64,000 nt of DNA, taken from contig JAUJPC010000001.1 in assembly GCA_030447305.1 (NCBI GenBank), positions 886,506-950,505 of the forward strand. The letters are read 5' to 3'. This stretch comes from Actinomycetota bacterium. GTDB taxonomy: Bacteria > Actinomycetota > CADDZG01 > JAHWKV01. Positions 23,297 to 26,928 of this stretch are shown here, in pieces (the stretch's first letter is position 1; the number at the start of each line of letters is the position of its first letter). The translations under genes were made by a program, and so were the position numbers. The notes below the pieces were generated by a model. That model was not told the DNA's origin. It ran no database searches and was given only the letters and a program-made list of their open reading frames with translations.

Positions 23297-23437
23297 TCAC
23301 GGTTGCCCCTCGTGCCGCCTGCGATGCTCCTCCTGGCAGTCCCGGCACACCAGCCGCCGGCATTCGGCACACCAGTCGATCGTCGTTGGGTTGGTTGTAC
23401 TCTTGGAACATATTGCACAGACGTACCGCATCTCCAT
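23297..23437 (-). CDS. 46-residue Cys-rich (zinc-ribbon-like) small protein
   Basis: A short open frame with a striking Cys pattern: C7-x2-C10, C23-x2-C26, C31-x2-C34, then His38 and His42. This is enough to bind two zinc ions in a B-box or treble-clef-like arrangement (WCAECRRLVCRDC). The ATG at 23437 (a second one at 23431) is preceded by TACTCT at 23444-23449, exactly 6 nt away, so the mRNA would be leaderless. Function is unknown. The Cys spacing and promoter argue against a chance frame. It is antisense to the spacer between tRNA-Leu and the diiron protein gene. Confidence 0.6.
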   Translation of the reverse strand: MEMRYVCAICSKSTTNPTTIDWCAECRRLVCRDCQEEHRRRHEGQP

Positions 23438-23506: not shown

Positions 23507-24550
23507 ATGAACCCGATCCTGACTCCTGAGGCGGTAGCAAAAAACCGCTCAGTGCAGAGCGGAATTGGCGCCGAGCCGGAGCTTCCCGCACCCCGGGGCC
23601 CGATCTCCGAACGGCTCCTGACAGCCCTGACGGGTGTTCCGTCGACCATCGGGACCCGGGTTCCGGTTCCCGACACTCCGTTATCGGACGACGATTTCCA
23701 CCTCGCCCTCTACGTCTGCTATGAGATGCACTACCGAAGCTTCAAAGACGTAGATGCGCATTGGGAGTGGAACCCCGGGCTTATCAGCTTTCGCAACAAG
23801 CTGGAGCACATTTTCGAAACCGCCCTGATGGATACGTATCTTGACGACGGAGGAGACTACCCAGTTGTCGAGGCAGTGAAGAACATCGCGGCCTCAACTC
23901 AGGGTCCCAGCCTTTCCACCTACATCAGCGAGCGGGCCACCCTCGAGGAGTTTTACGAGTTCGTCATTCACCGGTCGGCTTATCAGCTCAAGGAGGCCGA
24001 CCCCCACAGCTGGGTGATCCCACGACTGGACGGCAAGGCAAAGGCGGCGCTGGTGGAGATCCAGACCGACGAGTACGGGGGCGGCCGCGGGGACCGCATG
24101 CACTCGGAATTGTTCCGCAAGACGATGAAGGCTCTTGGACTCGACGGCAGCTATGGTGCCTACCTCGACGTTATTCCGGGAGTAACCCTGGCGACGGTTA
24201 ACCTGATCTCTTTATTCGGGCTTCACCGAAGGCTTCGGGGAGCAGCCGTAGGCCACCTGGCCATTTTCGAGATGACCTCATCTCAGCCCAATAAGGCGTA
24301 CGCGGACGGCGCCCGCCGGCTTGGGGCGTCCGCGGAGGCCACCGATTTCTACGACGAGCACGTAGAGGCCGACTCGGTTCACGAGGTCATCGCGGCATAC
24401 GACCTGGCCGGAGGCCTGGCCACCCAAGAACCGGAGCTTGGCCCGATCATTCGGTTCGGAGCCCGGGCTTGCGCCGGTTTGGACGCCCGCTTCTCGGCTC
24501 ACCTTCTGGACTGCTGGTCCAGGGGAGCGTCTTCACTCCGCCGGACGTAA
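23507..24550 (+). CDS. Iron-containing redox enzyme family protein (heme-oxygenase-like diiron fold)
   Basis: A 347-residue soluble protein. The N-terminal third carries YVCYEMHYRSF; the core has EIQTDEYGGGR, RMHSELF and IFEMTSSQPN; the end has DEHVEADSVHE followed by AAYDLAGG. The E-x2-H and H-E repeats fit the metal ligands of heme-oxygenase-like diiron oxidases. Members of this broad superfamily oxidise small molecules, often inside biosynthetic clusters; no substrate can be assigned. It ends 18 nt inside a convergent CDGSH gene, a pairing that recurs in actinobacteria and suggests electron transfer between the two. Confidence 0.82.
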   Translation: MNPILTPEAVAKNRSVQSGIGAEPELPAPRGPISERLLTALTGVPSTIGTRVPVPDTPLSDDDFHLALYVCYEMHYRSFKDVDAHWEWNPGLISFRNKLEHIFETALMDTYLDDGGDYPVVEAVKNIAASTQGPSLSTYISERATLEEFYEFVIHRSAYQLKEADPHSWVIPRLDGKAKAALVEIQTDEYGGGRGDRMHSELFRKTMKALGLDGSYGAYLDVIPGVTLATVNLISLFGLHRRLRGAAVGHLAIFEMTSSQPNKAYADGARRLGASAEATDFYDEHVEADSVHEVIAAYDLAGGLATQEPELGPIIRFGARACAGLDARFSAHLLDCWSRGASSLRRT

Positions 24551-24730
24551 CTGCTTGTGACTGCCGTCGCACCACGGCTTGATGGAGGAGGCTCCGCAAC
24601 AGCAAAGGGCAACCGTCCGCCGGCGAGCCGGGATTTTCTTGCCTTTCCCGTCTCTGACCACGTAGTTGCCGCGCACCAGCAGCGGCCCGCCGCGGTAGGT
24701 AGTGATGGAAGCTTCTTGCGGTCCGTCCAT
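24533..24730 (-). CDS. CDGSH iron-sulfur domain protein
   Basis: A 65-residue protein with the mitoNEET-type ligand set for a [2Fe-2S] cluster: Cys43, Cys45 and Cys54, with His58 in CDGSH. A single CDGSH unit of this size normally forms a homodimer that passes electrons or clusters. GGAGG lies 6-7 nt before the ATG. The 3' end overlaps the diiron protein gene by 18 nt in convergent orientation. Confidence 0.9.
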   Translation of the reverse strand: MDGPQEASITTYRGGPLLVRGNYVVRDGKGKKIPARRRTVALCCCGASSIKPWCDGSHKQLRPAE

Positions 24731-24787
24731 GTTGTGCCTCCTCCGGCCGAGATCGTACCCGGATAAGCCCCGACTGAACCGCGGCCA

Positions 24788-24958
24788 CCGCTACTCGGCG
24801 ATGGGTGCGGGTTCGACCAGGACTCGGTGGCCCCCGACCGCAGGGGCATTGCCGAGTCCATCCGAGGGCGCATGGAGCGCGCCGGCGGGTCCGCTTCGAT
24901 AACCACAGAACCCGGTGGGGGTACCGAGGTTCAGCTGACGACGGCGAGGGCCAATTGA
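24788..24958 (+). pseudogene. Remnant of a NarL-type sensor histidine kinase (C-terminal HATPase end)
   Basis: In frame 2 the translation reads [10 protein letters not shown], then [19 protein letters not shown], then [11 protein letters not shown] and a TGA stop (24956-24958). This matches the G1/G2-box end of LuxR/NarL-family histidine kinases (DxGxGFD...GLxGMRERxxxxGG...PGxGT). No start codon or upstream kinase sequence is present: CDGSH promoter DNA follows directly. It is a truncated relic of about 55 codons. Confidence 0.7.
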
Positions 24959-25041
24959 GCGAGACCCCGATAAAGGTGTTTCTGGTGGACGACCACCGGT
25001 TGTTCCTGTCCGGCGTACGCAGCGAGCTGGGAGAGGACACA
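24955..25041 (+). pseudogene. Remnant of a response regulator receiver domain (first ~28 residues)
   Basis: A TTG overlapping the kinase-relic stop (TTGA) begins [20 protein letters not shown] and continues as VRSELGE. This is the classical start of a NarL-type receiver domain, with the acidic pair before HRLF. After about residue 28 the similarity stops and the frame runs without a break into typA. The kinase/regulator overlap is kept, so a whole two-component operon once stood here and its middle and end were deleted. Confidence 0.7.
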
Positions 25042-25079
25042 AAAGACCTTTCAGTGTCCCGGCTGGAGCTCTTTGCGGT

Positions 25080-25085
25080 TACGCT
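25080..25085 (+). promoter_or_regulatory. -10 box TACGCT upstream of typA
   Basis: TACGCT ends 7 nt before the proposed GTG start of typA at 25093. The intervening GGAGGAA also resembles a Shine-Dalgarno sequence but is too close to the start codon to be ideal. Confidence 0.4.
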
Positions 25086-25092
25086 GGAGGAA

Positions 25093-26928
25093 GTGACCAA
25101 GCAAATCGCCGTCCGCGACGACGTGCGTAACGTGGCCATCATCGCCCACGTAGACCACGGCAAGACCACCCTCGTAGATGCCATGCTTCAGCAGTCTGGC
25201 GTCTGGCGCGAGAACCAGGTGGTGGTTGAGCGCGTCATGGACTCGATGGACCAGGAGCGTGAGCGGGGCATTACCATCCTCGCCAAGCAGACCGCCATCC
25301 ACTACGAGGGTCTCCACATCAACATCTGCGACACCCCCGGCCACGCCGACTTCGGCGGCGAGGTGGAGCGGACCCTGCAGATGGTCGACTCCGCCCTGCT
25401 GCTGGTCGATGCCTCCGAAGGGCCGCTGCCGCAGACCCGCTACGTGCTCCGCAAGGCGTTGGAGCGGCGGATCCCCGTGATTCCGGTCATCAACAAGATC
25501 GACCGGCCCGACGCCCGGATTCCGCAGGTGCTCGACGAGATCTACAGCCTGTTCATCGACCTGGACGCCGACGAGGAGCAGATCGACTTCCCCGTGATCT
25601 ACACGAATGCCCGCAAGGGCACCGCGACCACCGACCTCGATATCCCCGGGGTTGACCTCATCCCGCTGTTCGAGGCCATCTCCACCACGACCCCGCCCCC
25701 CACGTACGACCCGGAATCGCCGCTTCAGTTCATGGTGACCAACCTGGCGGCGGACCCCTACGTCGGCCGGCTGGCGATTGGACGGGTGTGGAACGGCAGC
25801 GTCAATAGCGGCGACCGGGTGGCGGTCTGCCACCGCGACGGATCGGTTGAGCCGGTTCGCATCACCAAGATGCTGGCCCATACCGGCCTGCTCTACGAGG
25901 AGGTCGACACCCTGGGACCGGGCGACATCGCTTCCATCGCTGGCCTGGGCGACGTGACCGTCGGCGAGACCATCACCGACCTGGAAAACCCGGCCCCCAT
26001 GCCCCTTTTGAAGATCGACGAGCCAACCCTGCGCATGACGTTCGGCGTCAACACCTCACCGCTGTCGGGCAAAGAGGGCAAGTTCGTCACCAGCCGCCAC
26101 CTCAAGGGCCGCCTGGACCGGGAGGTTCTCGGTAACGTCTCGATCCGCCTGGTCGACACCGGATCCCCCGACCGTACCGAGGTCCGGGGTAGGGGAGAGC
26201 TCCAGCTGGCCATCCTTATCGAGTCGATGCGCCGGGAGGGTTACGAGCTTCAGGTCTCCAAGCCGGAGGTCATCACCAAGCAGGTTGACGGCATGATCCA
26301 GGAGCCGTACGAGGACGTGATTCTGGACCTTCCCGAGCAGTTTGTCGGAGTGGTGACTCAGTCCCTGGCCCTGCGTAAGGGCCGCATGGCGAATCTGGTC
26401 AACCACGGCAGCGGCTGGGTTCGGATGGAGTTTCGTGTGCCGGCACGGGGACTTATCGGTTTCCGCTCGGAGATGCTGACCGAGACCCGAGGCACCGCCA
26501 TCATCCACAGCAACTACGCCGGTTACGATGTGTGGGCGGGGGACATTCCGCACCGCCTCTCGGGAGCCCTGGTGGCCGACCGCCTCGGCGAGACCACTGC
26601 CTACGCGCTGTACGACCTGCAGGAGCGCGGAGAACTTTTCGTCACCTCCGGGGTGACGGTTTATGAAGGCATGATCATCGGAGAGAACTCCCGCTCCGAA
26701 GACATGAACGTGAACCCCACCAAAGAGAAGAAGAAGACCAACATCCGAACCCATGCATCAGACGAGGCCTTGAGGTTGGTGCCGCCCCGCCCGCTGTCGC
26801 TGGAGCAGGCCCTGGAGTTCATGGCCGGCGACGAGCTGGTGGAGATCACCCCCCGCAACATCCGCCTGCGCAAGGCGGAGCTGGACCAGCGTCTGCGCCT
26901 GCGGGCGTACCACGCCGCAAAGCGGTAG
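25093..26928 (+). CDS. typA: Ribosome-associated translational GTPase TypA/BipA
   Basis: A 611-residue EF-G-like GTPase that binds ribosomes under stress and aids 50S assembly. G1 is AHVDHGKTT, with the switch region [14 protein letters not shown]3 [14 protein letters not shown] and G4 NKID. The BipA-specific C-terminal domain includes [12 protein letters not shown]. The frame is open far upstream, but homology begins near [13 protein letters not shown]. The GTG at 25093 gives the usual family length; the extra upstream codons belong to the response-regulator relic. If an upstream start were used, an N-terminal fusion would result. Confidence 0.94.

Follow-up and report, generated by a model that had tools for sequence, protein, structure and literature searches.

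In the 64,000-nucleotide stretch of DNA analysed here (the window), from an uncultured actinobacterium, the translational GTPase gene typA/bipA (25093..26928, + strand, 611 aa) is preceded by about 240 bases that look like the seam between a sensor kinase and its response regulator and that run without a stop codon into typA, raising the question of whether these bases are the remains of lost regulatory genes, an N-terminal extension of TypA, or something else. Comparison with relatives leads us to the reading, to which we give a probability of roughly 0.9, that positions 24794-25037 are a non-functional remnant of a PspC-kinase module and that typA still uses its native start at 25093, where its transcript is probably leaderless.

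Window positions ~24794-25037 are the junction piece of a histidine kinase-response regulator pair, consisting of about 53 C-terminal kinase codons, an overlapping stop and start, and the first 28 regulator codons. The kinase part (24794..24958, + strand) is 81% identical to residues 382-434 of an intact kinase; its frame (24791-24958) encodes 55 residues (DGCGFD...GGGTEVQL...TARAN), ends with a TGA stop at 24956-24958 and, after the preceding stop at 24764, contains no in-frame ATG, GTG or TTG. The regulator part (24955..25037, + strand; 82-89% identity to intact regulators) begins with TTG 24955 where the congeners have ATG, the TTGA overlap of the window corresponding to ATGA in all three of them. 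In a tblastn search of contigs from seven relatives, the kinase tail had counterparts in all three congeners (G001, G002 and G003), with 81-83% identity across 52 residues and E of at most 2.5e-24. The regulator head, too, matched in each of them, with 82-89% identity across 28 residues and E of at most 5.1e-12; no match of similar strength came from the four non-congener contigs, where the best kinase match had E 0.97 and the best regulator match 38% identity across 21 residues at E 0.003. The kinase tail, the 28 regulator codons and the TTGA overlap, all proposed by an earlier sequence-only reading, are thus present. At the DNA level the similarity to the congeners was 81-83% over 211-239 nt, with 239 nt at 83% (E 6.5e-68) in G001.

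That reading had carried the relic on to 25092. Regulator homology reaches ~25037, at codon 28 of 214 (the protein search extends to residue 33 at 70%), and the remainder comprises a 34-nt linker (25038-25071) and typA's own conserved upstream sequence (25072-25092). The profile searches that it had suggested were informative for the intact G002 homologues, which matched PspC, HATPase_c, Response_reg and GerE; the scraps alone scored weakly, the kinase scrap matching HATPase_c at E 0.057, under the cut-off for that family, and the regulator head giving no Pfam match. The scraps are identified through their intact homologues, not by their own Pfam scores. Only residues 382-434 of 435 of the kinase have a counterpart in the window, which excludes the sensor, the dimerisation region and a whole ATPase domain, and neither a whole receiver nor the HTH domain is left of the regulator (intact Response_reg spans 8-118 and GerE 153-208). 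A terminator-like stem lies on the + strand inside the regulator head (24982-24999), and 24500-25200 contains three terminator-like sites against a shuffle mean of 0.4; if real, the stem would oppose read-through into typA.

The comparison with close relatives, also suggested by the sequence-only reading, placed an intact kinase-regulator pair at exactly this locus, directly upstream of typA, in 3/3 congeners. The kinase has 420-435 aa and the regulator 214 aa, the two overlapping by ATGA, and the spacer between regulator and typA measures 418 nt in G001, 585 nt in G002 and 111 nt in G003. Among these spacers (L032, L033 and L034), only the typA-proximal stretch looks common to all three, with somewhat more shared by G001 and G002. 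PspC matches were found at the start of the kinase in all three congeners (in G002, PspC E 1.3e-21 at 43-98 and HATPase_c E 2.9e-6 at 348-431), refining the proposed NarL-type kinase to a PspC-domain kinase while leaving its identification as a histidine kinase tail in place. The adjacent G002 regulator has the receiver-HTH (LuxR) build, with Response_reg and GerE. Divergent from the congener kinase are a small PspC gene and a further PspC gene, whose G002 version (PspC E 9.3e-24) has a LiaF-like (Toastrack) C-terminus that we counted as present in the congener locus at LiaF-like_C E 2.9e-5 and 24.4 bits, under the 29-bit cut-off. Its orthologue is 63% identical over the full length in G003 and 74% over residues 1-214 in G001, where the contig ends inside the gene and the LiaF-like end lies outside it. 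Elsewhere in G002, another cluster of PspC-/LiaF-like matches (G002:C87:17182-20210), two of which contain TGA, is possibly a further such locus, intact or decayed.

The flanks of the relic allow the missing material to be sized. On its left, the window carries an iron-containing redox enzyme gene (23507..24550, + strand; Haem_oxygenas_2, PF14518, E 1.1e-58) and then a CDGSH iron-sulfur protein gene (24533..24730, - strand; zf-CDGSH E 1e-16), the last intact gene before the relic; left of its module, G002 continues into the same CDGSH and haem-oxygenase-like genes in the same order, and the CDGSH genes of the two align until just past the start codon. The G003 contig (L032:276-4200) gave no DNA match to these two window genes, and other open reading frames occupy its space between a tRNA-side match and the module. 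Two short stretches border the relic without assignment: about 55 nt at the left junction (24739..24793) and the 34-nt linker at the right (25038..25071). When 24739-24799 and 25038-25071 were aligned with the congener loci, at least 29% of shuffles scored as high in each of the nine comparisons. By the layout of G002, about 3.2 kb would have been lost on the left (the two PspC genes together with ~380 codons from the start of the kinase), and relative to the congeners 0.65-1.1 kb on the right (most of the regulator and the spacer). The proposal that a deletion had removed most of the system is borne out by the intact pair in 3/3 congeners, and needs widening in extent: the lost unit would be a four-gene module, with material missing on both sides of the relic. 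We also considered whether the fragment could be an inserted, translocated copy and rejected this: flanks and gene order agree with those of G002, and the genome yielded no copy from which it could have come.

The window genome (97.96% complete, seven contigs, estimated contamination 3.13%) was searched for another copy, and no other orthologue of the kinase, the regulator or the PspC-LiaF-like partner was found in it. The best other regulator was 41% identical; the best other kinase reached 39% over residues 247-430 and is part of another kinase-regulator pair, in which PspC was not matched; and the PspC-LiaF-like query returned only a small PspC piece, on C3. A second PspC-family match (G000:C6:184336-184452; 40 positions, 44.7 bits) lies beside a different regulator-kinase pair. 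An intact syntenic orthologue in the relatives, with none found elsewhere in the window genome, marks the fragment as a gene remnant left by deletion and upholds the earlier description of a fossil of regulatory gene loss. The same searches weigh on the idea that the organism possesses the module and that misassembly or a binning chimera collapsed it. Such an error is conceivable in what is probably a metagenome assembly with 3.13% contamination; we nevertheless regard it as very unlikely, because neither the kinase, the regulator nor the PspC-LiaF-like gene turned up elsewhere in the assembly, because the site lies inside a 986-kb contig, and because the linker at the right junction is unique (its first 30 nt occur once in the window genome with up to three mismatches allowed).

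How typA begins is the second part of the question. As the sequence-only reading had noted, the regulator frame is open from TTG 24955 to GTG 25093, through the 34 nt of linker and the 21 nt of typA upstream sequence. Since the last stop upstream in the typA frame is at 24775, a mechanical list of open reading frames gives a 707-codon typA from 24805, and six possible upstream starts lie in this frame (GTG 24805, TTG 24955, GTG 24976, GTG 24985, TTG 25000 and GTG 25054). Use of TTG 24955, which is preceded by a GAGGG run, would add 46 codons to typA and put the opening strand and helix of a receiver domain in front of TypA, and the 28 regulator codons concerned are still well conserved. Several observations speak against a functional fusion of this kind, the earlier proposal of an N-terminally extended typA. 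First, in congeners the typA frame is stopped 72-84 nt upstream of the GTG, with no ATG, GTG or TTG in between. Second, a -10-like box (TACGCT, 25080-25085) lies 7 nt before GTG 25093 and is conserved in 3/3 congeners; G005 and G007 have comparable ones. Third, a scan of 24500-25200 found no sigma-70-like promoter; the scan covers that type and misses -10-only promoters, including the typA box itself. Fourth, in a simple simulation with random linkers of 25-44 nt, the regulator frame was open into typA in 24% of trials. We consequently find the extended typA unsupported and hold a functional fusion to be highly improbable, and we give even less credence to a receiver-extended TypA (46 residues) that is translated from a read-through transcript in addition to the normal one.

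The native start is most likely GTG 25093, from which TypA is 90% identical over residues 1-610 to its counterparts in G001 and G003 and shows GTP_EFTU and BipA_C matches. Positions 25072..25092 (+ strand) form the kept upstream element of the gene: all four members of the genus have CGGTTACGCTGG within the 21 nt before the GTG, with TACGCT 7 nt before the start. Because this conserved box stands so close to GTG 25093, typA is predicted to be transcribed, probably leaderless, from 25093. Among the other relatives, TACTCT in G005 and TACCCT in G007 each lie 6 nt before ATG. In G006, visual inspection shows TACCCT at the same distance from an ATG that lies further upstream, beyond the reach of the TANNNT count. 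That count covered 87 non-redundant typA loci, each with 120 nt or more of upstream sequence; in 15 of them TANNNT precedes a possible start by 5-8 nt, and 51 of the loci lacking it have a Shine-Dalgarno-like stretch instead. As a rough background, which is not strict since several candidate starts were tried per locus, 220 of 31,442 NTG triplets in typA loci (0.7%) have such a box. By these counts a TANNNT box at the typA start characterises this group and a few others and is not general for typA. Judged by the comparison, which supports the start at 25093, the longest typA frame (707 aa) is artefactual, a result of the deletion, and it serves as a warning for annotation, as the longest open frame here misleads on the start. 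In a class-level relative (G011:C555:50375-52187), typA is split: one piece matches query 7-100 and the adjacent one, ~10 nt away, query 100-606, which points to a frameshift or else to an error in sequencing.

We then asked how old the loss might be. Over the 48 kinase and 26 regulator codons compared from 24812 on (74 in all), the relic has neither indels nor internal stops, and its divergence from the congeners (NG86) shows dN 0.07-0.11, dS 0.62-0.85 and dN/dS about 0.10-0.15, compared with dN/dS about 0.06-0.11 for the same segments between congeners and about 0.01-0.10 for longer pieces of intact congener genes. The relic thus appears at most slightly less constrained than the congener genes. 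An excess of amino-acid change was considered as proof of decay and rejected, since none was seen: 7 nonsynonymous and 10 synonymous changes are private to the window, against 5 and 12 in G003 (Fisher p 0.72). The low dN/dS and the lack of indels and stops imply that most of the divergence would have arisen before the loss, under constraint, and the module was probably lost recently on the scale of the genus. The same data could be read as selection on the scrap for another role, for instance as a regulatory region upstream of typA or as a short peptide, and here the low dN/dS, the missing indels and the fact that only 6 of the 17 private changes fall at codon positions 1 and 2 (two thirds expected if unconstrained; binomial p 0.009) would fit. 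This pattern is expected equally if most changes predate a recent deletion; moreover, the kinase frame has no ATG, GTG or TTG, and within the congener spacers of 111, 418 and 585 nt only the typA-proximal stretch aligns to the window. A selected role for the scrap accordingly seems to us extremely unlikely, and a recently formed, non-functional remnant is the reading that we retain.

The same locus was examined outside the genus. In G005, from another genus of the family, an N-terminally truncated LiaF-like fragment (L041:960-1304) lies on the opposite strand and begins 30 nt before the typA ATG; it is 36-38% identical to residues 300/302-389 of the PspC-LiaF-like protein of G002 and matches LiaF-like_C at 35 bits, above the 29-bit cut-off. 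Judged by eye, the end of the fragment runs on in another frame, an apparent frameshift that could be a sequencing error at a contig coverage of 3.1. No match to a kinase or regulator scrap was found in the ~1.3 kb upstream of typA on this contig. The fragment points to a module that already neighboured typA in the family ancestor and that G005 lost separately, with a different scrap left behind. Further left, G005 has a small cysteine-rich open reading frame in DNA that also matches window 23337-23437; the overlapping window interval 23325-23445 matches G003 left of the module. Across 24 class-level genomes, ten matched the kinase query over most of its length at 47% identity or more, the window genome had the relic, and 13 had weaker or partial matches only, which several incomplete assemblies among those searched keep from being read simply as absence. 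At the order level, the module lies ~82 kb from typA on the same contig in G006 and on a different contig from typA in G007; adjacency to typA as an ancient feature is unsupported beyond the family.

Taken together, these comparisons would fit a history in which the ancestor of the genus, and probably that of the family, carried a PspC-kinase module immediately before typA, as a unit of four genes, a PspC-LiaF-like gene and a small PspC gene divergent from a PspC-kinase and a LuxR-type regulator. Two flanking losses, or one complex event, may then have removed all but the kinase-regulator overlap. The right-hand loss would have stopped short of the -10-like box and left typA its native start, GTG 25093, which is probably leaderless. 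The locus offers a clean case of loss, in which a putative envelope-stress signalling module is gone from one species and kept by the other members of the genus examined; in a sister genus this locus shows signs of having eroded separately. It is an ordinary gene loss, cleanly documented, of a module whose type was already known.

With regard to known systems, a TANNNT motif ~12 bp upstream of the start is given, in the available part of the source, as a signature of leaderless genes that is frequent in Actinobacteria (PMC3160421); in the window, the first T of TACGCT lies 13 bp before the typA GTG, which makes typA a predicted member of this class. A literature search on the names EsrS, EsrR and EsrI gave only unrelated papers among the matches listed. 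The studied case is EsrISR of C. glutamicum, for which Kleine et al. (2017) is cited. The accessible text of one paper describes it as a three-component system (PMC6975037), and that of another places the PspC-kinase of this species in a three-component system answering envelope stress (PMC9239133); the latter text has the name once, and it is our own reading that its system is EsrISR. An envelope-stress role of the module would follow from this published C. glutamicum work. A PspC-fused histidine kinase, a receiver-HTH regulator and a divergent PspC gene with a LiaF-like end are described, in the portion of the paper seen, as an arrangement of a Lia-like system in Actinobacteria (PMC11237479). 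By its predicted domains and gene order, the congener locus is this known PspC-kinase (EsrISR-/Lia-like) module: the congeners likewise have an N-terminal PspC kinase, an overlapping LuxR-type regulator and a divergent PspC-LiaF-like gene, and they add a small PspC gene between the divergent genes, with typA directly downstream. With LiaFSR of Bacillus, as far as the available parts of PMC11237479 and PMC9239133 describe it, the module has in common a LiaF-like C-terminal domain alongside kinase and regulator, whereas the sensor part of the kinase is here PspC and not of the LiaS type. Of this arrangement, the window keeps only ~80 codons across the kinase-regulator overlap.
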